Translations under genes and position numbers: made by a program
Assembly: GCF_001884735.1 (NCBI RefSeq)
Contig: NZ_MJAP01000034.1
Span: forward strand, 372,001-436,000
Origin: Natronohydrobacter thiooxidans
Lineage (GTDB): Bacteria > Pseudomonadota > Alphaproteobacteria > Rhodobacterales > Rhodobacteraceae
Direction of reading: 5' to 3'
Length of the DNA: 64,000 nt
Shown here: positions 13,599 to 27,674 of the stretch, in pieces
How positions within the stretch are numbered: the first letter of the stretch is position 1
Layout of the letters: each line of letters starts with the position of its first letter
The notes under the pieces: generated by a model
Seen by the model: the letters and a program-made list of their open reading frames with translations, nothing else
Databases searched by the model: none
What the model was told of the DNA's origin: nothing

Positions 13599-14756
13599 AT
13601 GCCGGACGCAGCGATGATTGACGCCAGACAACCCGCAATCGCGGCAGAGACGAAGCCGTGGCGCAGCGCGGGCACGCGCCCCTTCATCTCGGTGAAGAAT
13701 ATCGTCAAGCGTTTCGGCGATTTTACTGCCGTCTCGAATGTCGATCTCGATATCTACAAGGGGGAACTCTTCTGCCTCCTGGGCGAATCGGGCTGCGGAA
13801 AATCGACCCTGCTGCGCATGCTGGCAGGCTTCGAGCAACCGAGCTCGGGCACGATCACCATTGATGGCGAGGATATGGCCCGCGTCCCCCCGGACCGTCG
13901 CCCCACCAATATGATGTTCCAGTCCTATGCGCTGTTTCCCCATATGACGGTGGAAAAGAATGTGGCTTACGGCCTCTTGCGCGAAGGGCTGTCGCGCGCG
14001 GCAGCCTATGAGCGTGCGGGCGAGATGCTGCGCATGGTCAAGCTGGAAAAACAGGCGCGGCGCAAACCTGACCAACTCTCGGGCGGGCAGCGCCAGCGGG
14101 TGGCGCTGGCGCGCGCGCTGGTCAAGAAACCGAAACTCCTGCTTCTGGACGAACCTCTGGGCGCGCTCGACAAGAAACTGCGCGAGGAAACCCAGTTCGA
14201 GCTGATCAAGATTCAGGAAAGCCTTGGCGTCACTTTCATCGTCGTCACCCATGATCAGGACGAGGCGATGACGCTGGCCACCCGCATCGGTGTGATGAAG
14301 GACGGCATCATCGAACAGATCGGCGAGCCGCGCGAGATCTATGAGACCCCCAATTCGCGCTTTGTCGCCGATTTCATCGGCTCGGTGAATCTGGTCGAAG
14401 GCAGGATCGACGCGGTAGCCCCCGATCTCATGCGCATCCAGACCGAGGAACTTGGCCCCGTCCTGCTGCCCCCGCAAACCGGCTATACCCGCAATCAGCA
14501 GGTCTGGGGCGCGGTGCGGCCCGAACGCTGGGCGCTGTCGCGGGCCAAGCCCGAAGCCAACCCGAATGCGTGGCAAGGGGTGGTCGAGGAACTGGGCTAT
14601 ATCGGCCATATGTCGCATTACCGGATCCGGCTCGATAATGGCGTGCTGATCCGCGCCAGCCAGTCGAACCGCTTGCGCGATGAAGACCCGATTTCATGGG
14701 ATGAACGTGTCTGGATCTCGGTCCAACCCGCCGCCTTCCGGGTGCTCACAAGATGA
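13599..14756 (+). CDS. potG: Polyamine ABC transporter ATP-binding protein
   Basis: 385 residues from the ATG at 13599; a GTG at 13590 and an ATG at 13614 are possible alternatives. Walker A GESGCGKST (62-70), Q-loop FQSYALFPHMTV, signature LSGGQRQRVALARAL, Walker B LLLLDEPLGALD and switch His in VVTHDQDEAM are all intact. A C-terminal TOBE domain, normal for PotA/PotG, covers roughly residues 290-385. It energises import of polyamines through PotH/PotI. potH begins inside its stop codon (ATGA). Confidence 0.92.
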   Translation: MPDAAMIDARQPAIAAETKPWRSAGTRPFISVKNIVKRFGDFTAVSNVDLDIYKGELFCLLGESGCGKSTLLRMLAGFEQPSSGTITIDGEDMARVPPDRRPTNMMFQSYALFPHMTVEKNVAYGLLREGLSRAAAYERAGEMLRMVKLEKQARRKPDQLSGGQRQRVALARALVKKPKLLLLDEPLGALDKKLREETQFELIKIQESLGVTFIVVTHDQDEAMTLATRIGVMKDGIIEQIGEPREIYETPNSRFVADFIGSVNLVEGRIDAVAPDLMRIQTEELGPVLLPPQTGYTRNQQVWGAVRPERWALSRAKPEANPNAWQGVVEELGYIGHMSHYRIRLDNGVLIRASQSNRLRDEDPISWDERVWISVQPAAFRVLTR

Positions 14757-15691
14757 ACGCGCTGACCCGCTCTGCGCCATGGCGCGGCACTGCATGGATC
14801 ATGGGCAAGCTCGGCATCTCCGGGCGCACGCTGGTGATCGCCATCCCGATGCTCTGGTTGCTGATTTTCTTCCTCGCACCTTTCTTCGTGTTGGGCCGGA
14901 TTTCGCTGGCAGAGGCGATCATCGCCCGCCCGCCCTATACGCCGCTCTTTGAACGCGGCCCCGACGGCACGCTGGAAATCATCGCGAGCTTCGAGAATTA
15001 CCGCTTCCTGCTCGCGGATGCGCTCTACCGCAATGCCTATCTCTCCTCGATCCAGGTGGCGCTGATCTCGACCATCTTCGCGCTCCTGATCGGCTATCCC
15101 ATCGCCTATTACATCGCCCGCGCGCCGGAACCCAAACGCTCGATCCTGCTTTTGATGGTGATCCTGCCTTTCTGGACCAGCTTTCTGTTGCGCGTCTATG
15201 CATGGATGGGCTTTCTGCGCTCGAACGGCGTGATCAATAACACGCTGATCAGCCTTGGCCTGATCGACAGCCCGATCCAGATGATGCAGACCGATTTCGC
15301 CGTCTATATCGGCATCGTCTATACCTATCTGCCCTTCATGATCCTGCCGCTTTACGCCAATCTGACCAAGCTCGATGGCGCGCTGCTGGAAGCGGCGGGC
15401 GATCTCGGCGCCTCGCCCATGACCACCTTCTTCACCATCACGCTGCCCCTGTCACTTCCGGGCATCGTCGCAGGCTCGATGCTCGTTTTCATCCCGGCCA
15501 TCGGCGAATATGTCATCCCCGCACTCTTGGGCGGCCCCGACACGCTGATGATCGGGCGTGTGCTCTGGGATGAGTTCTTCTCCTCGCGCGACTGGCCCGT
15601 GGCCTCGGCCGTGGCGATTGTCATGCTGTTTCTGGTCGTGGCCCCGATCATGTGGCTGCAATCGGTGCAGAACCGGCGGGAGGAATCGTGA
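14753..15691 (+). CDS. potH: Polyamine ABC transporter permease PotH
   Basis: 312 residues with an N-terminal anchor (LVIAIPMLWLLIFFLAPFFVLGRISLA), five further membrane segments and the permease EAA loop EAAGDLGASPMTTFFTITLPLSLPG, which docks to the ATPase. It matches the PotB/PotH family. A hydrophilic segment after the first helix (about residues 60-85) would be periplasmic. The start overlaps the potG stop and the stop overlaps the potI start (TGATG), indicating tight translational coupling. Confidence 0.92.
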   Translation: MNALTRSAPWRGTAWIMGKLGISGRTLVIAIPMLWLLIFFLAPFFVLGRISLAEAIIARPPYTPLFERGPDGTLEIIASFENYRFLLADALYRNAYLSSIQVALISTIFALLIGYPIAYYIARAPEPKRSILLLMVILPFWTSFLLRVYAWMGFLRSNGVINNTLISLGLIDSPIQMMQTDFAVYIGIVYTYLPFMILPLYANLTKLDGALLEAAGDLGASPMTTFFTITLPLSLPGIVAGSMLVFIPAIGEYVIPALLGGPDTLMIGRVLWDEFFSSRDWPVASAVAIVMLFLVVAPIMWLQSVQNRREES

Positions 15692-16491
15692 TGCGCGGCT
15701 GGTTCCTGCCTCTCGCCGTCCTTTTCGGCTTCATCTTTCTCTACGCCCCGATCCTCTCGCTGATCGTGTTTTCCTTCAATGAAAGCCGCCTTGTCACCGT
15801 CTGGGGCGGCTTCTCGACCCGCTGGTATGGCGAACTCTTGCGCGACCGCCAGATCCTGAACGCCGCATGGATCAGCCTCAAGGTCGCCTTCTGGTCGGCC
15901 ACACTCGCCACGATCATCGGCACGCTCGGCGCCTTTGTCCTGACCCGCTTCAGCCGTTTCACCGGCAGGCTCCTGCTGACCGGCATGATCACCGCGCCCC
16001 TCGTCATGCCCGAGGTGATCACCGGCCTCTCGCTGCTTCTGTTGTTCGTGTCGATGGAACTCACCCTCGGCTGGCCCGCAGGCCGGGGCCTGACGACCAT
16101 CGTCATCGCCCATACCACCTTCTGCGCGGCCTTCGTCGCGGTGATCGCCCAATCCCGCCTGCGCCAGATGGACGAATCCCTCGAAGAAGCCGCGCGCGAT
16201 CTCGGCGCGGGCCCGGTGCGGGTGTTTTTCGACGTCACGCTCCCGGTAATCATGCCCGCGCTGGTCGCAGGCTGGCTTCTGGCCTTCACGCTCTCGCTCG
16301 ATGATCTGGTCATCGCCAGCTTCGTCTCCGGCCCCGGCGCCTCGACCCTGCCGATGGTGATCTTCTCCAAGGTCCGGCTCGGCGTCAGCCCCGATGTGAA
16401 CGCGCTGGCCACGATCATCATCGGCATCGTGCTGGTCGCAGTGCTGATCGCCGGATGGCTGATGCGCCGGGCGATGCGCAACCCGTTATAG
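15691..16491 (+). CDS. potI: Polyamine ABC transporter permease PotI
   Basis: 266 residues, six membrane segments, starting MRGWFLPLAVLFGFIFLYAP. It has the PotC/PotI N-terminal feature VFSFNESRLVTVWGGFSTRWY and the EAA loop EEAARDLGAGPVRVFFDVTLP. It forms the heterodimeric channel with PotH. The ATG at 15691 has a strong GGGAGGAAT ribosome site; upstream in-frame codons belong to potH. Last gene of the operon; no strong terminator follows, only the palindrome at 16494. Confidence 0.92.
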   Translation: MRGWFLPLAVLFGFIFLYAPILSLIVFSFNESRLVTVWGGFSTRWYGELLRDRQILNAAWISLKVAFWSATLATIIGTLGAFVLTRFSRFTGRLLLTGMITAPLVMPEVITGLSLLLLFVSMELTLGWPAGRGLTTIVIAHTTFCAAFVAVIAQSRLRQMDESLEEAARDLGAGPVRVFFDVTLPVIMPALVAGWLLAFTLSLDDLVIASFVSGPGASTLPMVIFSKVRLGVSPDVNALATIIIGIVLVAVLIAGWLMRRAMRNPL

Positions 16492-16493
16492 CG

Positions 16494-16508
16494 ATCAGAA
16501 TTTCTGAT
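16494..16508. promoter_or_regulatory. Perfect 15-nt palindrome upstream of katG
   Basis: ATCAGAA-T-TTCTGAT lies 3 nt after the potI stop and 81 nt before the katG ATG. A partly related GATCAGAGAATTC follows at about 16515. Position and symmetry suit an operator for a peroxide- or metal-responsive regulator of katG. It does not match the usual OxyR spacing or the Fur box, so the regulator is unknown. Confidence 0.35.
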
Positions 16509-16556
16509 GCAAATGATCAGAGAATTCAACTTAACCTGATCACGCGTCCCTGTTAG

Positions 16557-18755
<2,199 letters not shown>

Positions 18756-18774
18756 TCCGGTCTGACAATCTGCA

Positions 18775-18804
18775 AGCGGCGTGCCCTCGGGCGCGCCGCT
18801 TTTT
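18775..18804 (+). terminator. Rho-independent terminator of katG
   Basis: AGCGGCGTGCCC and GGGCGCGCCGCT pair over 12 positions with one G-U, followed by TTTT. It starts 20 nt after the katG stop codon. Confidence 0.85.
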
Positions 18805-19184
18805 CATGGCCCTGGGCCAGATGCATGACGTTTTGCGCCGGGTCCGATCAGCTCGCGCCACAGCCCGCTTGCAGCCCCCAACTTCATCTTGCCGAAAAAT
18901 ACTCTCACTGAGTGGCCACGGGCCGCCCTGTTAAAAGCGCGGGCGGCACAGCCTGCCCAAGCTGGTCGGAATGCACTCCAGCGTTCCGCACCCGACGAAA
19001 CGCGCCGCGACTGTCAGCAATGCGGACGGAGCTGCCGTTCGCTGCGGTTGCAGTATGGGCTGAACTGCGCGGCGGCAGTGCGCAAAAGCGCCCTTTGAAA
19101 AACCCGACTACCGGCCTGGTTCTGCCGGTGTCGAAAACTTCTCCGTTTGCCTGGCCCGACCTGAGGATGAATACGTTTATACGG
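18805..19184. other. 380-bp gene-free stretch at the left side of an island-like region
   Basis: No frame here shows family resemblance. It contains a family B repeat (18885) and then mixed sequence including a CTGCCGTTCGCTGCG phrase, which looks like decayed mobile-element or intergenic debris. Base composition falls noticeably towards the right, where the AIPR gene begins. Confidence 0.5.
18885..18904 (-). repeat. Family B intergenic repeat, copy 2
   Basis: CATCTTGCCGAAAAATACTC, the variant form with CATCTTGCC in place of CATTTTCTTGCC. It is 130 nt past katG, at the edge of the island-like region. Closest relative is the copy at 36582. Confidence 0.75.
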
Positions 19185-19213
19185 TTGCGAGCGGAACAGT
19201 TAGCTGTGATACT
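19185..19213 (+). promoter_or_regulatory. Sigma-70-type promoter for the AIPR gene
   Basis: TTGCGA (19185-19190) and GATACT (19208-19213) are separated by exactly 17 nt. The -10 box abuts the ATG at 19214. Transcription would therefore begin around 19220, which rules that ATG out and favours translation from 19247. Confidence 0.55.
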
Positions 19214-19246
19214 ATGTGGAACCTGTATAAAGGCAAAGACACTTTC

Positions 19247-20962
19247 ATGAACTTCACGGACGCGCTAAAAACCCGACAATCTCTAATCGCCAAAATTGGC
19301 CACGACGAAGCGTATCTTTGTCTTGCGGTCGCGCTCTTCATCGAGGAGCCAGACGTCGATTTGTTGGCGAGTGAAGGTCTTACCGAAGGCGGAAATGATA
19401 AGAAAATCGACTTCATTTATCACGATCCGAATTCAAAGCGTTTGGTTTTCGCCCAAGGCTATCTGGCGAAAAAGCCGAAAGACGAAGCCCCGAGCAACAA
19501 AGCCTCAGACCTCAATACGGCTTGTGCTTGGCTTCTGTCTGGAGACCTGACAACGGTACCAGAAAAGCTGCGGGAAATCATTATAGGCTTCCGCGCTGCA
19601 ATAGATGCAGGCGAAATCGAATCAATTGACCTTTTATACGTCCACAATTTACCGGAATCAGTGAACGTAACTCGCGAGCTTCAAACAGTCGAAAGCCATC
19701 TACGTACAACGCTCGCGGACGATAAAATTACGGTTCGTTCACATGAGCTCGGTAAGGCTAAGATTGAGCATCTGTTTACAGCTCAAGACTCCCACATTGA
19801 AGTGATTGACGACATTGATTTCCCTTGGGAAATTGGCATCACTCAAATAGGAGACAACTGGACAGCTGGTGTTGCCACAGTAGAGGCGAACTGGTTGCAT
19901 GGTCTCTACGAGAAATACGGCGACAAGTTATACAGTGCGAACTATCGTGGATTCCTCGGTGCCGACGGTCGAAAACGAGTCAACTCTGGAATCCGCGAAA
20001 CTGCTGAAAAGGAGCCCAAAGACTTTTGGGCCTACAACAACGGCATTACAGTGCTAACCCTTTCTATAGGCGATAAGAAAAAGGGTAAAAGAACTTTGCG
20101 GGGAGTTTCCATCATCAACGGAGCGCAAACTTCCGGAACTATTGGTTCAATTGATAAATCTAAAACGTCACTCGATGAAGTGAAGCTGCTTTGTCGGGTC
20201 ATTGAATGCTCTGATCAAGCAACCATCGACAAGATTGTTCGCTTCAATAATACTCAAAACGTTATCACCACGTGGGATCGATTCAGCAATGATGCTGACC
20301 AGAAGCGGCTGTCTGACGAGTTTGATGAACTCGGGTACGCTTACAATCGCAAGCGTGGCTTCAATGCCCACGGTGACCAGATTGGAATTGAGCAAGTACT
20401 GCAACCCTTGCTTGCATTCCACGGCCGTCCTACAGATGCGGTTCGAGGTAAGGCACAGCTTTTTGTTCAAGGGCACTTATACAGGAGCGCATTTGAAAAC
20501 AAGAAAGCCAGACATATTTTGCTCGTATACTCTCTCGCCCGCGCAATCGATAACAAAAGGCTTGAGTTAAAGGCTAAATCAAATGAGGGTGCTCTAATAT
20601 CGGTCGAGGCCAGGCAGTTGGCACTCCTGAGGAACCTCAATTTCAAACCGTTTCTCATTGCTGCAATAGCGAACAGTCTTGAAACCATTGTCGGCACCTA
20701 TTGCGACCCTCTGACGGTCAGCTTCAAACCCGCTGCCATCAAGGGCACAGTATTGACCGATCTCTCAGCAAGATGGCTGCCAATAGTAGAAGCTGTACTT
20801 CCACTTCTCACAGCCATTGTCCAACCAGATACATTTTTCAAGAAGCTTAGTTCGGAAGACGACTTTATGAGCCAAACAAAAGCTCAGTTAGACGCCATGC
20901 TCGTCGCGACCGGGCAACCCGAAAAATGTTCTGATTTTTCATCGATGGTGGCATCAACCTGA
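19247..20962 (+). CDS. AIPR (abortive infection phage resistance) family protein
   Basis: 571 residues from the ATG at 19247; an ATG at 19214 overlaps the predicted -10 box. The AIPR core is clear: YRGFLGADGRKRVNSGIRET (about 232-251), DFWAYNNGITVL (about 254-265) and VSIINGAQTSGTI (about 286-298). The N-terminus resembles a PD-(D/E)xK nuclease fold, with GGNDKKIDFIY (D55) and LVFAQGYLAKK (Q70), but the usual QxK reads QGY. Members are linked to phage defence by abortive infection. The gene is visibly AT-richer than its neighbours and stands alone, so horizontal acquisition is likely. Function is inferred from family only. Confidence 0.85.
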   Translation: MNFTDALKTRQSLIAKIGHDEAYLCLAVALFIEEPDVDLLASEGLTEGGNDKKIDFIYHDPNSKRLVFAQGYLAKKPKDEAPSNKASDLNTACAWLLSGDLTTVPEKLREIIIGFRAAIDAGEIESIDLLYVHNLPESVNVTRELQTVESHLRTTLADDKITVRSHELGKAKIEHLFTAQDSHIEVIDDIDFPWEIGITQIGDNWTAGVATVEANWLHGLYEKYGDKLYSANYRGFLGADGRKRVNSGIRETAEKEPKDFWAYNNGITVLTLSIGDKKKGKRTLRGVSIINGAQTSGTIGSIDKSKTSLDEVKLLCRVIECSDQATIDKIVRFNNTQNVITTWDRFSNDADQKRLSDEFDELGYAYNRKRGFNAHGDQIGIEQVLQPLLAFHGRPTDAVRGKAQLFVQGHLYRSAFENKKARHILLVYSLARAIDNKRLELKAKSNEGALISVEARQLALLRNLNFKPFLIAAIANSLETIVGTYCDPLTVSFKPAAIKGTVLTDLSARWLPIVEAVLPLLTAIVQPDTFFKKLSSEDDFMSQTKAQLDAMLVATGQPEKCSDFSSMVAST

Positions 20963-21320
20963 GCGGCGGCGATTGATGTTTTGTGTGACGCAGCTCCGAG
21001 TCCATCTTCTTCGTTGGCATCCCCGAAGTTTGAAATCGTTTCGGGTATCAGATTCTATCCGGCTTTCGTGCGAGATGAACGAGGATGATTGTGTCTGCTA
21101 TAGGCTGGCTGCGGCCCGATGCACCCGCAGAATTTTAAGCGGCCTGTGCGTCCGCTCAGGGCTCGAAGCCGTCATGGGGTATCTTGTGTCAGATGCAGAG
21201 TACTAGCGCCTGCCATTCCGGGGGCTTTCGCATTCGGGCCGCAATTATCCCCCCGGATCATTTCCGGACGCCCCTCATCACTGGCGCGACGCTCCCCCGT
21301 CATCCCGGCAGGCGCTGCCC
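20963..21320. other. 358-bp stretch without a gene downstream of the AIPR gene
   Basis: Only short, unconvincing frames are present. GC content rises again to the right. A GGGGGCTTTCGCATTCGGGCCGC segment near 21220 shows partial inverted symmetry with flanking CCCCCGGA sequence but no terminator T-run. I see no integrase, terminal repeat or tRNA that would mark an island end. Confidence 0.5.
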
Positions 21321-21640
21321 TCACCCGGGCTCCGAACCGGGTGATGCAGCCGTCGCGGGCCGCAATCTGTAGCGCGCCGGATGCGCGTAATGGGGCAGGG
21401 CCGCCTCGCTGATCCGGCGCAACTCGGGCGGCAGATCCGGCAGCGGCGCTTCCGCGCCCCCAAAGCCCGTGGAGCGATTACCAGACCGGCGCCCGGATCC
21501 CGTCATAGGGTTTCGGACCAGCAGACCGGCGCAGCATCCGGGCGCGATACTCCAGCCCCAATCCTTGACAGAGCGCAGGCATCATCCCCTCGGGATCGGC
21601 GCGGATATCGGCTCGGTCGAACACCAAGCGCGGATTTTTC
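21321..21640 (-). pseudogene. Frameshifted C-terminal remnant, sulfotransferase-like
   Basis: Two minus-strand frames make one protein tail: NPRLVFDRADIRADPEG...GLGLEYRARMLRR...GPKPYDGIRAPVW, then a stop, then NRSTGFGGAEAPLPDLPPEL...ALPHYAHPARYRLRP in another frame. The break is at about 21478-21480. The joined tail resembles sulfotransferase-like proteins of Rhodobacteraceae (SADIRADPEGM, AGPKPYDG, HRSTGF). Nothing recognisable precedes NPRLVF, so the N-terminal part is missing. The family call is from memory and tentative; the frameshifted state is seen directly. Confidence 0.5.
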
Positions 21641-21856
21641 GCCTGATGAAATCGATTTTCAGAATTTGCGGGTGTTTTGCCCGGACTCTCCGACCTGGCC
21701 CGTCCAGAATGAAAAACGCTTTCAAAAACCCCGGCTTGTTGCACAGAATCGATATTCTCCAGCGTCACCCCGGCATATTTCGCCCCGAAACTTGCCAAAA
21801 CCCGATCCGGGTGCCGGATCAGCCCAACGCCCCGCGAGCCTCTGAAAAGCCCTTGT

Positions 21857-22597
21857 TCATGCCCGCGCGATCAGCGCCCGCGTGGCCCGGATCGCGGCAT
21901 ATTCCGAGCGGGTCTTGCCGCGCAGACGGTGCAGCCAGACGCCCGGTTGCGCGAGATATTCCAGCCACCACAGGTTTCTGGACAGGCTTTGGGTCTTGCG
22001 CCAGACGGTCTCGGACCCCGCGGCGCGATAGCCTTGCAGGGCCAGTTCCGCGAGCTCTGTCTCGGTGCCAAGCGTGGCATAGACCGAATGCAGCAGCAGC
22101 GAGAGGTCACGCGCCTTGTCGCGCGTGCGGGCATGCAACCTGGCCCCGGCTTCGAGGTCGAGAAAGGTCAAGTCCTTGTCATTCCAGCAAATATCGCGCA
22201 GCGAAGGGCGCCCATGCGCCAACCCGCGCGCATGAAGTTCGGCCAGCGCCGCGCCCGTGCGCTGCATCAGGCTGGCATCGGCCTGCCCGCGATAGACCAG
22301 CGATTGCAGCGGTGTGCCATGATCGGCGAGCACGATCCTGTCGCTCTCCGCAGCCACAATCCGCGCGACCGCCGCCCCCTTTGCCGCGAAGCCCCGCAGC
22401 AATTCCACCTCGCGCGCGAAGGCGGCTTTCGGATCACCTTTCTGAAGCCGCCAGCGCAGCGACGCGTGCTGTTCGGGCATTTTCACGAAATAGGATTTCC
22501 CCTCATGCGTGATCGGGGTCAGACGGCGCGGGGGCAGAGCGCGCGCGATCTGCAACAGGCGCTCGGCCAGCGTGCTTTCCGTGTCAGTTGGCGGCAT
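21857..22597 (-). CDS. Kinase-like protein (Kdo/RIO-kinase fold, small)
   Basis: 246 residues from the ATG at 22597, which has GGGGA 6 nt upstream. The fold pattern is a small lipopolysaccharide-kinase/RIO-like kinase: candidate ATP lysine K39 in SYFVKMP, E64 in REVELLRGF, a loop LHARGLAHGRPSLRDICWND (119-140) and a DFG-like FLDLEA (D148). The loop has HGR where classical kinases have H-x-D, with D135 five residues later. No membrane segment. It is divergent from crcB. The substrate is unknown; a phosphotransferase acting on a lipid or sugar is an inference from the fold. Confidence 0.6.
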   Translation of the reverse strand: MPPTDTESTLAERLLQIARALPPRRLTPITHEGKSYFVKMPEQHASLRWRLQKGDPKAAFAREVELLRGFAAKGAAVARIVAAESDRIVLADHGTPLQSLVYRGQADASLMQRTGAALAELHARGLAHGRPSLRDICWNDKDLTFLDLEAGARLHARTRDKARDLSLLLHSVYATLGTETELAELALQGYRAAGSETVWRKTQSLSRNLWWLEYLAQPGVWLHRLRGKTRSEYAAIRATRALIARA

Positions 22598-22686
22598 GCA
22601 ATTCCCCGAAGCCCTGTGAATTGATTGACAGTCTTTGGGTGGTTGGCGCAAAACTCCGGCCACGGCAACCCGAATGTGACCTGCAA

Positions 22687-23085
22687 ATGACGATCACGCT
22701 TTCAGATTTTCTGCTGATCTGCCTTGCCGGGGGTTTGGGTAGCATGCTCAGGGCCAGCATGACCTCGCTTCTGTCGCATCGGCTGCACCCGGCGGGCACG
22801 ATATTTGTTATCAATGCCTTAGGCAGTCTTCTGATCGGCTTTGCCTTTGGCTTCGCGCTCGGTCTCGCCCCGTCCACAGGCGCGGCTGACCTGCCGAAAG
22901 CCTTTATCCTCTTCGGCATGGGGCTTTTGGGCGGGTTCACCACGGTCTCGACCTTCGCGCTGCAAGTGCATGAGCTGTGGTTGGCCGGGCGCGGGCGCGC
23001 GGCGCTGATCACGGCAGGCGGATCAGTGCTGTTATGCCCGCTGATGGCGGCGCTGGGGCTAATCCTGGCGCTGGGGGCCGGGTGA
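22687..23085 (+). CDS. crcB: Fluoride channel subunit CrcB/Fluc, first copy
   Basis: 132 residues, four membrane segments, CrcB signatures GGLGSMLRASMTSLL near the N-terminus and GLLGGFTTVSTFALQ (conserved Phe/Thr of the fluoride pore). It exports fluoride passively. The second crcB begins in its stop codon (TGATG), so the two are a dual-gene pair expected to form antiparallel heterodimers. The ATG at 22687 was chosen because the family N-terminus starts there; the ribosome site is weak. I see no fluoride riboswitch in the 89-nt leader. Confidence 0.9.
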   Translation: MTITLSDFLLICLAGGLGSMLRASMTSLLSHRLHPAGTIFVINALGSLLIGFAFGFALGLAPSTGAADLPKAFILFGMGLLGGFTTVSTFALQVHELWLAGRGRAALITAGGSVLLCPLMAALGLILALGAG

Positions 23086-23431
23086 TGGGGCTTTGGGCGG
23101 TCGGACTGGGGGGCGCTCTGGGCACGGGGCTGCGGGGCGCGCTCAGCCTGCTGGCGCTGCATCTGCTGGCCGAACACGCCTATCTGGCGACGCTGGTTGC
23201 CAATGTGCTGGGCGCGGGGCTGATCGGCTATCTGGCGACGCGCAGCCTGTCACTCGGGCGACGCGCCTTCTGGATGACCGGGTTCTGCGGCGGTTTCACC
23301 ACCTTCTCATTGTTTTCGCTGGAGATTGTGACTCTGCTGGAGCGATCCCTGACCGGGGCGCTCGCCTATGGCAGCGCCTCGCTGGTGCTGTGGATGCTCG
23401 CTGTCTGGGGCGGCTGGCGCTGGGGTCGGGG

Positions 23432-23435
<4 letters not shown>
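23085..23435 (+). CDS. crcB: Fluoride channel subunit CrcB/Fluc, second copy
   Basis: 116 residues, four membrane segments. It starts MGLWAVGLGGALGTGLRGALSLL and has the pore signature GFCGGFTTFSLFSLE and LVANVLGAGLIGYLATRS. It is distinct in sequence from the preceding copy, which fits heterodimeric Fluc channels in which the two subunits have opposite fixed topology. Translationally coupled to the first copy. Its 3' end overlaps the convergent fabI end by 4 nt, so there is no room for a terminator between them. Confidence 0.9.
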
Positions 23436-24220
<785 letters not shown>

Positions 24221-24230
24221 GATCCGCTCC

Positions 24231-25460
24231 TCAGTCGCGCCAGGCGCTCATGATGAGCGTGGCATTGGTGCCGCCAAAGCCGAAGCTGTTGGACAGGACC
24301 GAGTCGAGTTCAATGTTTTCAACGAGTTGCGTGGCGATCTCACCCTCGCGGATGGCGGGGTCAAGCTCGGTCACATTGGCGGAGGCTGCGATGAACCTGC
24401 CCTGCATCATCAGCAGGCTGTAGATCGCTTCCTGCACGCCGGTCGCGCCAAGCGAGTGGCCGGTCAGCGATTTGGTCGAGGAGATCGGGGGCACATTGCC
24501 TTCGCCCCAGATGCGGCGGATCGCCTCAACCTCCGTCACATCGCCTGCGGGGGTCGAGGTGCCATGGGCGTTGATATAGCTGACCTTGCGGTCCGAGGGC
24601 AGGGTGTCGAGGGCAAGGCGCATCGAGCGCTCACCGCCTTCGCCCGAGGGGGCGACCATATCATGCCCGTCCGAGGTCGCGCCATAGCCGGTCACTTCGG
24701 CATAGATTTTCGCACCGCGCGCCTTGGCGTGTTCAAGTTCTTCCAGAACCAGCACGCCGCCACCGCCGCCGATCACAAAGCCGTCGCGGGTCACGTCAAA
24801 GGCGCGGGCGGCGGTCTCTGGCGCGTCATTATATTTCGAGGACATCGCGCCCATCGCATCAAACAGGCAGGAGAGGGTCCAGTCCAGTTCTTCGCCGCCA
24901 CCGGCGAAGATGATATCCTGTTTGCCCATCTGGATCAGTTCGGCGGCATTGCCGATGCAATGTGCCGATGTCGAACAGGCCGAGGTGATCGAGTAATTCA
25001 CGCCCTTGATCCTGAAGGGCGTCGCCAGACAGGCCGAGTTGGTGGAGGACATGCAGCGCGTGACCATGAAGGGGCCCATGCGCTTGGGGCTGCCTTTCTC
25101 GATCACGATCTGATGGGCCTGAAACAGGTTCGAGGTGGAGGGCCCGCCCGAGCCCATGATCAGACCGGTGCGCGGGTTCGAGACATCGGCCGCGTCAAGC
25201 CCGGCATCGGCAATCGCCTGTTCCATCGACAGGAAATTATAGGCCGCGCCCGCGCCCATGAAGCGCAGGTTGCGCTTGTCGATATGGTCTTCGAGCACGA
25301 TCTGCGGTTTGCCATAGACCTGGCTGCGGAAACCGTGTTCGGCATGTTCCGGCGCGAAAACAATGCCCGAGCGGCCTGCGCGCAGGCTGTCCGACACTTC
25401 TGCGGCGGAATTTCCGATGGGGGAAATGATCCCCAGACCTGTGATGACGACGCGGCGCAT
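24231..25460 (-). CDS. fabB: 3-oxoacyl-[acyl-carrier-protein] synthase I
   Basis: 409 residues of the ketoacyl synthase family. Catalytic Cys162 lies in [13 protein letters not shown], the two His in [11 protein letters not shown] and [11 protein letters not shown], with a C-terminal [14 protein letters not shown]. Sequence features fit FabB, which elongates unsaturated intermediates, more than FabF. In many related genomes fabA lies directly upstream and fabI downstream. Here fabI is present, but fabA is not in the window; a family A palindrome and an unrelated operon lie upstream. GGGAGGGACC precedes the ATG. Confidence 0.92.
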
Positions 25461-25574
25461 GGTCCCTCCCGGTAAAACAGTCGTGCCTGTCTATGGCAGT
25501 GCGCGCGGCGGGGCAAGGGTCTTGGCGTGGTGGTTTTGACGGTCCGGGGGGATGCGGGCACTATCGGGGGTGGG

Positions 25575-25603
25575 GTAGGGTGCGTGCTGAGCACGCACCT
25601 TAC
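25575..25603. repeat. Family A palindromic repeat, copy 2
   Basis: 29 nt with arms GTAGGGTGCGTGCT and AGCACGCACCTTAC around a single G. One arm mismatch (T for C at 25600). It begins 1 nt after the stop codon of the GATase-like gene and lies about 115 nt upstream of fabB. Confidence 0.88.
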
Positions 25604-25604
25604 A

Positions 25605-27674
25605 TCAGCGCCCTTCGCGCAGCCATGCCCCCAGCGCCAGCCCGGCGGCCAGCAGAAGCCATGCCCAACCCGGCAGCAAAGCGCTGGTCCGCAGATCGCG
25701 GGTCAGATAGGCCTCGCGCGGGGTCAGGCCCAGCCAGCCGCGCCCGGCAGCGGCACGGCCCTCGCGCACAAGGCGCAGCTCGGGCAGACCCTCTTCCAGC
25801 CGCACGGAACCGCCGCGCGTGGCATTCACCAGCGGGCCCAGCTTCTCGGCCGTGGCGATGGTTTCCTCGAACTCGCGCGGGGCCTGGGGGCCAAGCGCGA
25901 TCACCGCCTTCAGATCGCCCTCGGTCAGACGGTAGAGGCCGGTTTCGGGCGCGTCAAATTCGGCGCGGAAACTGCCGGGGCTGTCCTCGGTCAGATCCAG
26001 CAGGGTCTCGGTCCCGTCGGGGCCGGTCACGGTCACCTCCCCCACCTCGTCGCGCAGGCTGCGGCGCAGGATCGTCACGCGGTTGCCTTCGGCGGTCGCG
26101 CTCAGGGTTTCCTCTTCCAGTTCCGGCTCGCCCATCATCCAATGCGCCAGCCGCCGCAAGAGTTCCAGTTGCGGCCCGCCGCCCTCGAACCCGCGATCCC
26201 AGAGCCATGTCTGATCCGAGGCCAGCAGCGCCATGCGCCCCGCGCCCACCCGGTCGAGCATCAGCAGCGGGCGGTCCCCCACGCCGCTCATCACGGTCTG
26301 GCCCCGCTCCGGCACCATCTCGATCTGGCGGAACCAGCGCCCCCAGCCGGGGCCGTCCTCTGCGGCGGGGGCCAGCGCTTCCAGCCCCGCAGTCACCGGA
26401 TGGCGCTGGCCAAGCTCGGTCACGCGCGGGGTAAAGCCTTCCTCAATCACGCGCGCGGTGGGCCGGGCCGGGAAGACCTCGCCCAGGGGCGAGCGCCAGA
26501 TGCTGTCGGCGCTGGCGAGTTCGGGGCCCCCCACCACCAGAAGCGCGCCGCCCTCTTCGACATAGCGGGCGATATTGGCGTAATAGCTGTTGGGCAGGAT
26601 GCCGCGACGGCGGTAGCGGTCGAAGATGATCAGGTCGAACTCGTCGATCTTCTCGACAAAGAGTTCGCGCGTCGGGAAGGCGATGAGCGAGAGTTCATTG
26701 ACCGGCACCCCGTCATGGCGGTCGGGCGGGCGCAGGATGGTGAAATGTACCAGATCCACCGCCGGGTCGGATTTCAAGAGGTTGCGCCATGTCCGCTGCC
26801 CGGCATTGGGCTCGCCCGAGACCAGAAGCACGCTGAGGCGGTCGCGCACCCCGTTGATCTGGACCACGGCGGCGTTGTTGCGGGTGGTTAACTCACCGGG
26901 CGCTTCGTCAAGCTCGAATTGCAGCACATTCATCCCGCCGCGTTCCAGCGTGACGGTGATTTCCATATCCTCGCCCACTGGCACCATGGCGCGCTGCATC
27001 TCGCCGCCATTGATCGCGTAATTCAGCGCCGCATAGCTGCTTTCGCCGCGGGGCACCGCGCCCTGATCCTCGATTCGCAGCCCGAGTGTGATCGGCTCGC
27101 CCAGAATGGCGAAAGCGGGGGCGTTGCGCAGGATCAGGCGGCGATCCCAGTCGCTGGCCTTGCCGGTCTTGAGCAGGTGGAAAGGGGCGGGCAGGGTCAG
27201 GCCGGGGGCTTCGTCATGGGTCTGGCCGTCAGAGATGGCGAAGACGCCCGCCAGCCGGTCGCGCGGCAGATCCGAGAGCGCTTCGGCCAGTGCGGTGTTG
27301 ATCTCGGTGCCCTGATTGCGCGGCCCGTCGGGCAGGCGCACCACGCGCGTCTCGATCCCGCCCAGGCCTTCGATCGCGCCTTCAAGGTGGTCGAGCGCGG
27401 CTTCGGTCTGTTCGGCGCGGCTGCCCAGCCGGTTCGAGGCGGTGTCATCGACGACAATCAGCGCGATATCGTCGAGCGTGTCGCGATCCTCGGTCTGCAG
27501 CGAGGGGTTGGTGAGCGCCGCGATCAGCGCCAGTGCCGCAAGCCCGCGCAGCCACCAGCCGCGAAGGCCCCGCCATAGGGCGATCCCGACCATGAGCGCG
27601 GCAATCCCCGTCACGGCCCAGATCAGCGCCCAGTCGAGCAGGGGTGCGAAGATGATCTCCTGCGCGCCGGTCAT
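25605..27674 (-). CDS. Membrane protein with glutamine-amidotransferase-like and VWA-like regions
   Basis: 689 residues. Two N-terminal membrane segments (about 15-33 and 40-56) precede a VWA-like strand ALIVVDDTASNR with D76-x-T78-x-S80 at the metal-site position. A central GATase-like fold includes VLLVSGEPNAGQRTWRNLL and GGALLVVGGPELASADS, but no clear Cys-His-Glu triad. A C-terminal membrane segment follows (SALLPGWAWLLLAAGLALGAWL). It is the last gene of the MoxR/DUF58/BatA operon, overlapping the preceding gene by 4 nt. Likely part of an envelope complex with those proteins; exact role unknown. Confidence 0.75.
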   Translation of the reverse strand: MTGAQEIIFAPLLDWALIWAVTGIAALMVGIALWRGLRGWWLRGLAALALIAALTNPSLQTEDRDTLDDIALIVVDDTASNRLGSRAEQTEAALDHLEGAIEGLGGIETRVVRLPDGPRNQGTEINTALAEALSDLPRDRLAGVFAISDGQTHDEAPGLTLPAPFHLLKTGKASDWDRRLILRNAPAFAILGEPITLGLRIEDQGAVPRGESSYAALNYAINGGEMQRAMVPVGEDMEITVTLERGGMNVLQFELDEAPGELTTRNNAAVVQINGVRDRLSVLLVSGEPNAGQRTWRNLLKSDPAVDLVHFTILRPPDRHDGVPVNELSLIAFPTRELFVEKIDEFDLIIFDRYRRRGILPNSYYANIARYVEEGGALLVVGGPELASADSIWRSPLGEVFPARPTARVIEEGFTPRVTELGQRHPVTAGLEALAPAAEDGPGWGRWFRQIEMVPERGQTVMSGVGDRPLLMLDRVGAGRMALLASDQTWLWDRGFEGGGPQLELLRRLAHWMMGEPELEEETLSATAEGNRVTILRRSLRDEVGEVTVTGPDGTETLLDLTEDSPGSFRAEFDAPETGLYRLTEGDLKAVIALGPQAPREFEETIATAEKLGPLVNATRGGSVRLEEGLPELRLVREGRAAAGRGWLGLTPREAYLTRDLRTSALLPGWAWLLLAAGLALGAWLREGR

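Follow-up and report, generated by a model that had tools for sequence, protein, structure and literature searches.

The 64,000-nucleotide stretch of Natronohydrobacter thiooxidans DNA analysed here (contig NZ_MJAP01000034.1, positions 372,001 to 436,000; called the window below) carries a gene of the AIPR family between katG and crcB. We think it somewhat probable that this gene was acquired horizontally, that it is a self-contained anti-phage (or superinfection-exclusion) gene travelling alone, partly as cargo of temperate phages, and that it acts by a nucleotide-gated nuclease mechanism. The interest of the gene lies in a predicted two-domain architecture and in a predicted active site whose catalytic lysine may have been relocated. 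AIPR genes appear under this name in the literature from 2008 at the latest (PMC2292703), and a literature search limited to open-licence papers found no tested mechanism for AIPR proteins.

The gene is an intact open reading frame (ORF) on the + strand, running from an ATG at 19214 or at 19247 to 20962. In the longer, 582-aa reading the protein matched the AIPR profile PF10592 over residues 241-486 (E=1.1e-33; 117.7 bits, cut-off 25) and, over residues 32-556, phrog_1841 ('Abi alpha-like'; E=1.3e-110), and it is 97% identical to its counterpart from Citreicella (locus L021). The core motifs N264 N265 G266 and N291 G292 A293 Q294 T295 occur in all 47 rows of our alignment A5. With the profile cut-off of the family exceeded and the NNG and NGAQT motifs in place, the gene is a genuine AIPR-family member, as an earlier sequence-only reading of this DNA had proposed in pointing to PF10592. 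That reading had also placed the gene between katG and crcB and, as probable, its start at 19247, and we agree on both: katG (PF00141) lies on one side and a Kdo/WaaP-like kinase gene and crcB (PF02537) on the other, and the start at 19247 is preferred because the alignment, read by eye, has indels just 5' of this ATG in L021 and in the Roseibacterium locus L022, while the ATG itself is common to L021-L025. The preferred start gives a 571-aa protein, from which residues are numbered unless the 582-aa reading is named.

Comparison with congeners supports the view that the gene was inserted here and was acquired horizontally. A query from the katG end (18300-19150) matched in 37 of 37 genus genomes, our own included, and no orthologue of the AIPR protein was found in the 36 congeners searched, several of whose assemblies are incomplete; matches at E≤0.001 occurred in five of the 36 and were only partial, at 31-37% identity. 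The junction was inspected in the loci of 20 of the 36 congeners. Three of them (G023, G035 and G022) have a direct empty junction, with 18809-18810 joined to 21358-21368 within 0-9 bases. In 12 further loci a match to the kinase (nine loci) or to crcB (three) lies ~290 bases or less from the katG match, a gap too small for the gene. The right flank was not found in the other five (L071, L077, L083, L084 and L085), with a contig end nearby in L077 only. Beyond the genus, two of the 390 genomes of an order sample matched at E≤1e-40, one of them being our own, and the only match among the 385 genomes of a class sample was again our own. The sequence-only reading had singled out presence or absence of the katG-to-kinase interval in close relatives as telling; the gene is not at this locus in most relatives, and it bears no signs of decay. 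The features of the locus are listed here, where the last is taken up further below.

19247-20962, + strand: AIPR-family gene, predicted single-gene anti-phage nuclease (PF10592, phrog_1841, 97% identity to L021; alternative in-frame ATG at 19214)
18811-21357, no strand: insert of ~2.55 kb, absent from congeners G023, G035 and G022 (junction comparison)
19080-21130, no strand: DNA shared with Citreicella L021, AIPR gene only (88% identity; for L022, 19093-21030, 85%)
18835-18989, no strand: left-edge repeat of the insert, dispersed and intergenic (12 or more other matches in the own genome)
21149-21323, no strand: right-edge repeats of the insert, short and dispersed (matches elsewhere in a number of congeners)
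21358-21822, - strand: Sulfotransfer_5 gene remnant (PF19798; intact beside katG in G023)
19185-19213, + strand: promoter-like TTGCGA-17-GATACT, a candidate with 8/12 consensus matches (consensus scan, shuffles)

The earlier claim that decayed sequence flanks the gene stood in part, for the right of the insert, where the remnant lies: PF19798 matched the 106-aa fragment in the window at E=2.7e-7 and the G023 copy at E=2e-73. In G023 the intact Sulfotransfer_5 gene is followed by an Aminotran_4 gene, which was not seen beside the window remnant. The left-edge repeat (~150 bp) was also matched in several congeners. An integrated element was considered and rejected: no long inverted repeat was reported to link the two ends of the insert, no clear target-site duplication was seen at the junctions by eye, and there is no tRNA gene within the 64-kb window. 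Given the dispersed repeats at its edges, assembly of the insert by repeats or stepwise is possible.

A scan of genome contigs found relatives in five other genera, with best-segment identities of 96% (Citreicella), 92% (Roseibacterium), 79% (Nisaea), 65% (Maritalea) and 51% (Mesorhizobium). Their names span four families; the genome of the Maritalea record is grouped in the window's own family. This record is named Maritalea mobilis (L025/L128, G114:C2), a name that belongs to Devosiaceae, and may be misnamed. Within window positions 14001-26000, DNA matches to L021 and to L022 were confined to the stretches listed above, that is, to the AIPR gene plus at most 0.17 kb on each side. The unit shared between these genomes is one gene in size, with short flanks that, as far as a partner gene is concerned, could still hold short ORFs or small RNAs. 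The ratio of nonsynonymous to synonymous substitution rates is 0.040-0.060 against Citreicella and 0.054-0.080 against Roseibacterium, and the gene is maintained under purifying selection on branches that include other hosts. The claim of a solitary, acquired gene is borne out by the absence from congeners, the near-identical genes in other genera, the gene-sized shared DNA and this selection.

Among six cellular loci (the window and the five relatives; ORF lists read by eye), the gene stands alone among ordinary chromosomal genes in five, the Roseibacterium copy lying ~0.5 kb from a tRNA-Ser gene. The statement that the family sits mostly in larger islands fails for these closest relatives. 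In Citreicella the copy is part of a defence cluster, with matches to AbiLi (7.7e-89), AbiLii (1.1e-26) and a type IV mREase (4.1e-84); by eye, the locus (L021:2345-10220) is a small defence island of AbiL-like genes, the AIPR gene and a GmrSD-type enzyme, with phage-like genes nearby. The Mesorhizobium copy (L024:10001-11605) is in frame, lacks the conserved FNNTQN of the AIPR core and is possibly inactive. The genome of the window has a second AIPR gene of another type (L099:6314-8041, G000:C24; PF10592, E=1.5e-41), which reads Q-A-K by eye and is also alone between ordinary genes. We also looked for a conserved RNA partner: no Rfam model matched at its gathering score, the one match at E=0.82 being far under its cut-off, and a three-sequence fold of the upstream stretch had two-sided changes in only 3 of 36 pairs, too few to speak for a conserved RNA structure there. 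The solitary state is a habit of a partly phage-borne AIPR subfamily more than an anomaly of this genome.

At the protein level, 20 phage records and 134 plasmid records contain relatives, none of them reaching 60% identity, and scanning viral contigs with a profile yielded 62 loci. Among members of the window protein's clade, whose motifs are described below, L121 (on the same contig as L130) directly follows an integrase gene and L138 lies ~1.75 kb from one; L122 shares its contig with terminase and tape-measure genes, and L140 is next to a P2-type portal gene. In a Klebsiella Felsduovirus, which is P2-like, the gene lies between the ORF after dinI and the portal gene; in Salmonella phage RE2010 a distant relative with Q-x-K occupies the same kind of place, and its record carries the note 'prevents superinfection'. 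When one protein near the gene, not always its direct neighbour, was scanned against PHROG at each of ten viral loci, four matched (L136 baseplate, L138 integrase, L139 transposase, L140 portal) and the other six (L131, L132, L133, L134, L148 and L156) had no match at 1e-6; phage context holds for part of the viral loci only. From these contexts, the gene is likely to be a complete one-gene defence system.

The low GC content that had drawn attention to the gene was confirmed: at 47.6% GC, its GC content at third codon positions (GC3) of 0.49 is the lowest of 51 window ORFs (at least 150 aa, selected heuristically by script), the remaining 50 having a mean of 0.756 and a standard deviation of 0.066. 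Reading a recent arrival from this AT-richness was rejected, because all ten AIPR relatives measured are AT-rich relative to their own loci, for example the Nisaea copy (0.399 against 0.603) and the copy of the Maritalea record (0.447 against 0.641). Low GC is a trait of the gene family and gives no date for the arrival. The promoter was upheld in its letters and spacing, TTGCGA at 19185-19190 and GATACT at 19208-19213 separated by 17 nt, and not in its strength: the site matches the consensus at 4/6 and 4/6 positions, it is absent from the list of a scan for at least nine of 12 consensus matches, and a site as good arose on the same strand in 43% of 500 dinucleotide shuffles of 19045-19244, so that a consensus-like promoter has no support beyond chance. 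The -10 element reads GATGCT in both L021 and L022, and a second weak promoter-like site, CTGTGA-17-TATAAA, was seen for L021.

To describe the protein, we modelled it with AlphaFold2 and compared its parts with known structures by VIA-align. The full-length model, made with 42 sequences, had a mean predicted local distance difference test score (pLDDT) of 84.2 and a predicted template modelling score (pTM) of 0.46; a second model of residues 186-571 had a pLDDT of 86.7 and a pTM of 0.72. Residues 1-182 aligned to FokI with a Z score of 9.4 (root-mean-square deviation 4.0, 148 aligned), and to BspD6I (7.7), MspJI (7.4), HamA of Hachiman (6.2), Shedu (5.2) and LmuA (5.0). The six best rows are restriction or nicking endonucleases, with RNA polymerase subunits and others lower down, and most of the leading rows we take to be PD-(D/E)XK nucleases. 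The model suggests that the N-terminal domain has a restriction-endonuclease-like PD-(D/E)XK nuclease fold. For residues 202-338 the first six rows were ParB-N (Z 5.5 and 5.5), Caulobacter ParB (5.3), BrxU (3.9) and SspE (3.8 and 3.8), and viral GmrSD-N and DndB-like models match the AIPR domain with probabilities of 0.99-1.00 and E-values of 0.004-0.014. Because the row list is consistent and these viral models match, the predictions suggest that the AIPR core is a ParB/GmrS/SspE-like nucleotide-binding module. DndB has been placed in the ParB superfamily (PMC10853773) and its N-terminus assigned to the AbiU1/AIPR family (PMC3506569), and both placements, as these papers give them, agree with a ParB-like AIPR domain. 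The parts of the protein are the following.

19247-19792, + strand: predicted PD-(D/E)XK nuclease domain, residues 1-182 (AlphaFold2 and VIA-align)
19850-20263, + strand: AIPR signature core, predicted ParB/Srx-like module, residues 202-339 (VIA-align, viral models)
20387-20962, + strand: C-terminal, mostly helical region, residues 381-571 (AlphaFold2 models)

The putative nuclease site differs between two types of AIPR protein. Our alignment A4 has 42 rows, 25 from the clade of the window protein and 17 others; it omits near-copies among phages, rows from plasmids and genome handles, and ORFs lacking the N-terminal motif. Three motifs of the N-terminal domain carry the difference.

19388-19411, + strand: GGNDKKID, residues 48-55 (D51 and D55 in 42/42 rows; K53 in 25/25 clade rows, Gly in 17/17 others)
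19454-19462, + strand: Q-G-Y, residues 70-72, with Y72 in place of the usual catalytic Lys (Tyr in 25/25 clade rows, Lys in 16/17 others)
19496-19516, + strand: NKASDLN, residues 84-90, opening the helix that follows the Q-x-Y strand, with K85 as candidate relocated Lys (N84 and K85 in 25/25 clade rows)

The putative metal-site residues are shared by both types, with Q70 present in 41 of 42 rows beside the invariant aspartates, and the exception to K72 among the other rows, L190, has its Q-x-K a few residues off. The swap also holds among the 99 ORFs matched that are of either type: the 41 of the K type all have Q-x-Y and the 28 of the G type all have Q-x-K, counts that include repeated records such as L121/L130 and L025/L120/L128, and six are copies from the window itself. 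Residue 72 was left unconstrained in the patterns of the viral scan. In a tree of the C-terminal part alone, which has no nuclease motif, one change separates the types, and none of 500 shuffles gave as low a number; the branch support is 81/40, the single change is kept in 75% of the bootstrap trees and long branches were flagged. The canonical (D/E/Q)-x-K lysine is absent from the whole clade, which departs in this from the PD-(D/E)XK pattern. Migration of the catalytic lysine to the motif IV helix has been proposed for DUF506, DUF790 and DUF1626 (PMC1913061), and lysine migration in the superfamily is also discussed in PMC1189080. Judging from the conservation pattern, the role of the lost lysine has most likely been taken over by a relocated one, K85 or K53. 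K85 is the first candidate because it lies in the helix (residues 83-98 in the AlphaFold2 model) that comes directly after the Q-x-Y strand; K53, beside the aspartate pair, is the second.

We infer nuclease activity, nucleotide gating and an anti-phage effect, and propose the following mechanism by analogy with SspE, in which recognition is described as triggering a GTP hydrolysis that licenses an HNH nuclease (PMC13251355). The ParB/Srx-like AIPR domain would sense a trigger linked to the phage, such as modified DNA, a replication intermediate, a protein or the nucleotide pool, and would change its state upon nucleotide binding or hydrolysis. This change would license the N-terminal restriction-endonuclease-fold domain to cut DNA in the same chain, and the target might be phage DNA alone or host DNA too, the latter amounting to abortive infection. 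With tyrosine in the place of the Q-x-K lysine, its chemical role would fall to K85 in the next helix or to K53 beside a metal-binding aspartate. A generalization is offered tentatively, as something we would sooner doubt than assert: this clade of AIPR proteins, carried as lone genes by phages, plasmids and chromosomes, would be an immune enzyme that performs 'recognise-hydrolyse-cut' in one polypeptide and whose catalytic lysine moved once in evolution, from the Q-x-K strand to the K85 helix or to the D-K-K-x-D turn with K53. If true, the AIPR family would gain a mechanism open to direct test. The way in which lysines are lost and gained together across the clade leads to predictions that a few point mutants could test.

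Several observations weigh against a nucleotide-gated nuclease. The pTM of 0.46 means that the individual domains are to be trusted above their arrangement. The ParB-like Z scores (at most 5.5) and most nuclease Z scores (below 8) fall in a range that, according to the tool, is common for unrelated folds, FokI at 9.4 alone being above it. A Foldseek search of the PDB gave no match at E≤0.001 for either model, and a sequence search of the PDB found nothing convincing, a Fab (E=0.65) and two TRPA1 entries (E=0.08) being taken as chance. Neither motif type is present in 24 of the 99 matched ORFs, so the nuclease part, judged by sequence, is not common to all AIPRs, and the viral scan could have missed intermediates, its patterns being restricted to K or N at residue 52 and to K or G at residue 53. 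Without the canonical catalytic lysine, the predicted nuclease of the clade could be dead or altered. Finally, PMC3506569 ascribes to AIPR proteins an N-terminal HEPN RNase domain, which was not found in the window protein.

The tyrosine in all 25 clade rows would also fit an N-terminal domain that has lost catalysis and serves only as a DNA- or metal-binding sensor, with protection coming from the ParB-like domain, by nucleotide depletion or DNA clamping, or from a steric block; for members of the ParB superfamily, a role as nucleotide-degrading or nuclease effectors has been proposed (PMC10853773). However, the invariance of D51 and D55, the near-invariance of Q70, the appearance of new invariant lysines in the very clade that misses the old one and the strong purifying selection speak against it, and we consider this account unlikely, though one to be taken seriously. 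If AIPR proteins were HEPN-type RNase abortive-infection toxins, as described in 2012, the ascribed HEPN domain should be recognizable by its R-x(4-6)-H motif, but the matches of the window protein to this pattern are conserved in only 2 of 42 rows, on which ground the HEPN toxin was rejected. Moreover, the model gives the N-terminus an alpha/beta fold that aligns to restriction-type nucleases, and a HEPN survey, in the text available, counts AbiU2 among the HEPN proteins without mentioning AIPR by name (PMC3710099). We regard such a toxin as very improbable here.

Carriage on phages and plasmids, scattered solitary insertions and the repeats at both insert edges could come from a selfish or rival-excluding gene that benefits phages or mobile elements and lies in this chromosome as a stranded leftover. 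Against this, the gene is intact and strongly constrained between hosts and the Citreicella copy sits within a host-type defence cluster, and we find this explanation improbable. As for the origin of the insert, absence by itself cannot tell loss from gain, but an ancestral gene lost from every sampled congener receives almost no credence from us in view of the lack of an orthologue in 36 congeners, the three junctions without the gene, the matches limited to two genomes of the order sample and one of the class sample, own genome included, and the AT-rich composition. The acquired, self-contained anti-phage gene is our preferred reading. The lone acquired defence gene of the sequence-only reading holds as far as sequence allows, while its promoter and the recency drawn from composition do not, and a solitary, compact, mobile AIPR member with a clear empty site makes a good experimental entry point.

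Compared with known systems, the window protein shares only its AIPR part with two of them. AbiU (PADLOC PDLC02357) has the AIPR domain in common with it (residues 236-443, E=3.9e-30), whereas the N-terminal nuclease part is unmatched. MzaE of the MZA system overlaps a portion of the AIPR domain (residues 220-360 in the 582-aa reading), and its PADLOC match is likewise confined to that domain, but the NCBIfam model scored 66.9 bits against a cut-off of 1050, and the protein is not classed as an MZA component. The closest subfamily, AIPR PF10592 / phrog_1841, has the same NNGIT and INGAQT core motifs, with near full-length coverage of phrog_1841, and differs in that the clade has D-[KR]-K-[IC]-D, Q-x-Y and NKASDLN where the others have D-x-G-[IL]-D and Q-x-K. 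Hotspots of anti-phage genes have been described in P2-like phages, and a figure legend on P4 hotspots gives AIPR among its abbreviations (both in PMC9122126). Clade relatives lie between replication-side genes and the portal gene of P2-like phages; the window copy, in contrast, is chromosomal, with katG, a kinase gene and crcB as neighbours, and these neighbours also set it apart from GmrSD, BrxU and SspE. GmrS has DGQQR (PMC4619093) where the window protein has NGAQT, an equivalence we infer. What GmrSD, BrxU and SspE appear to share with the window protein, on the evidence of its models, is a ParB/Srx-like module and a nuclease in one chain, the nuclease being C-terminal and of the HNH type in those systems and, by prediction, N-terminal and PD-(D/E)XK-like here.

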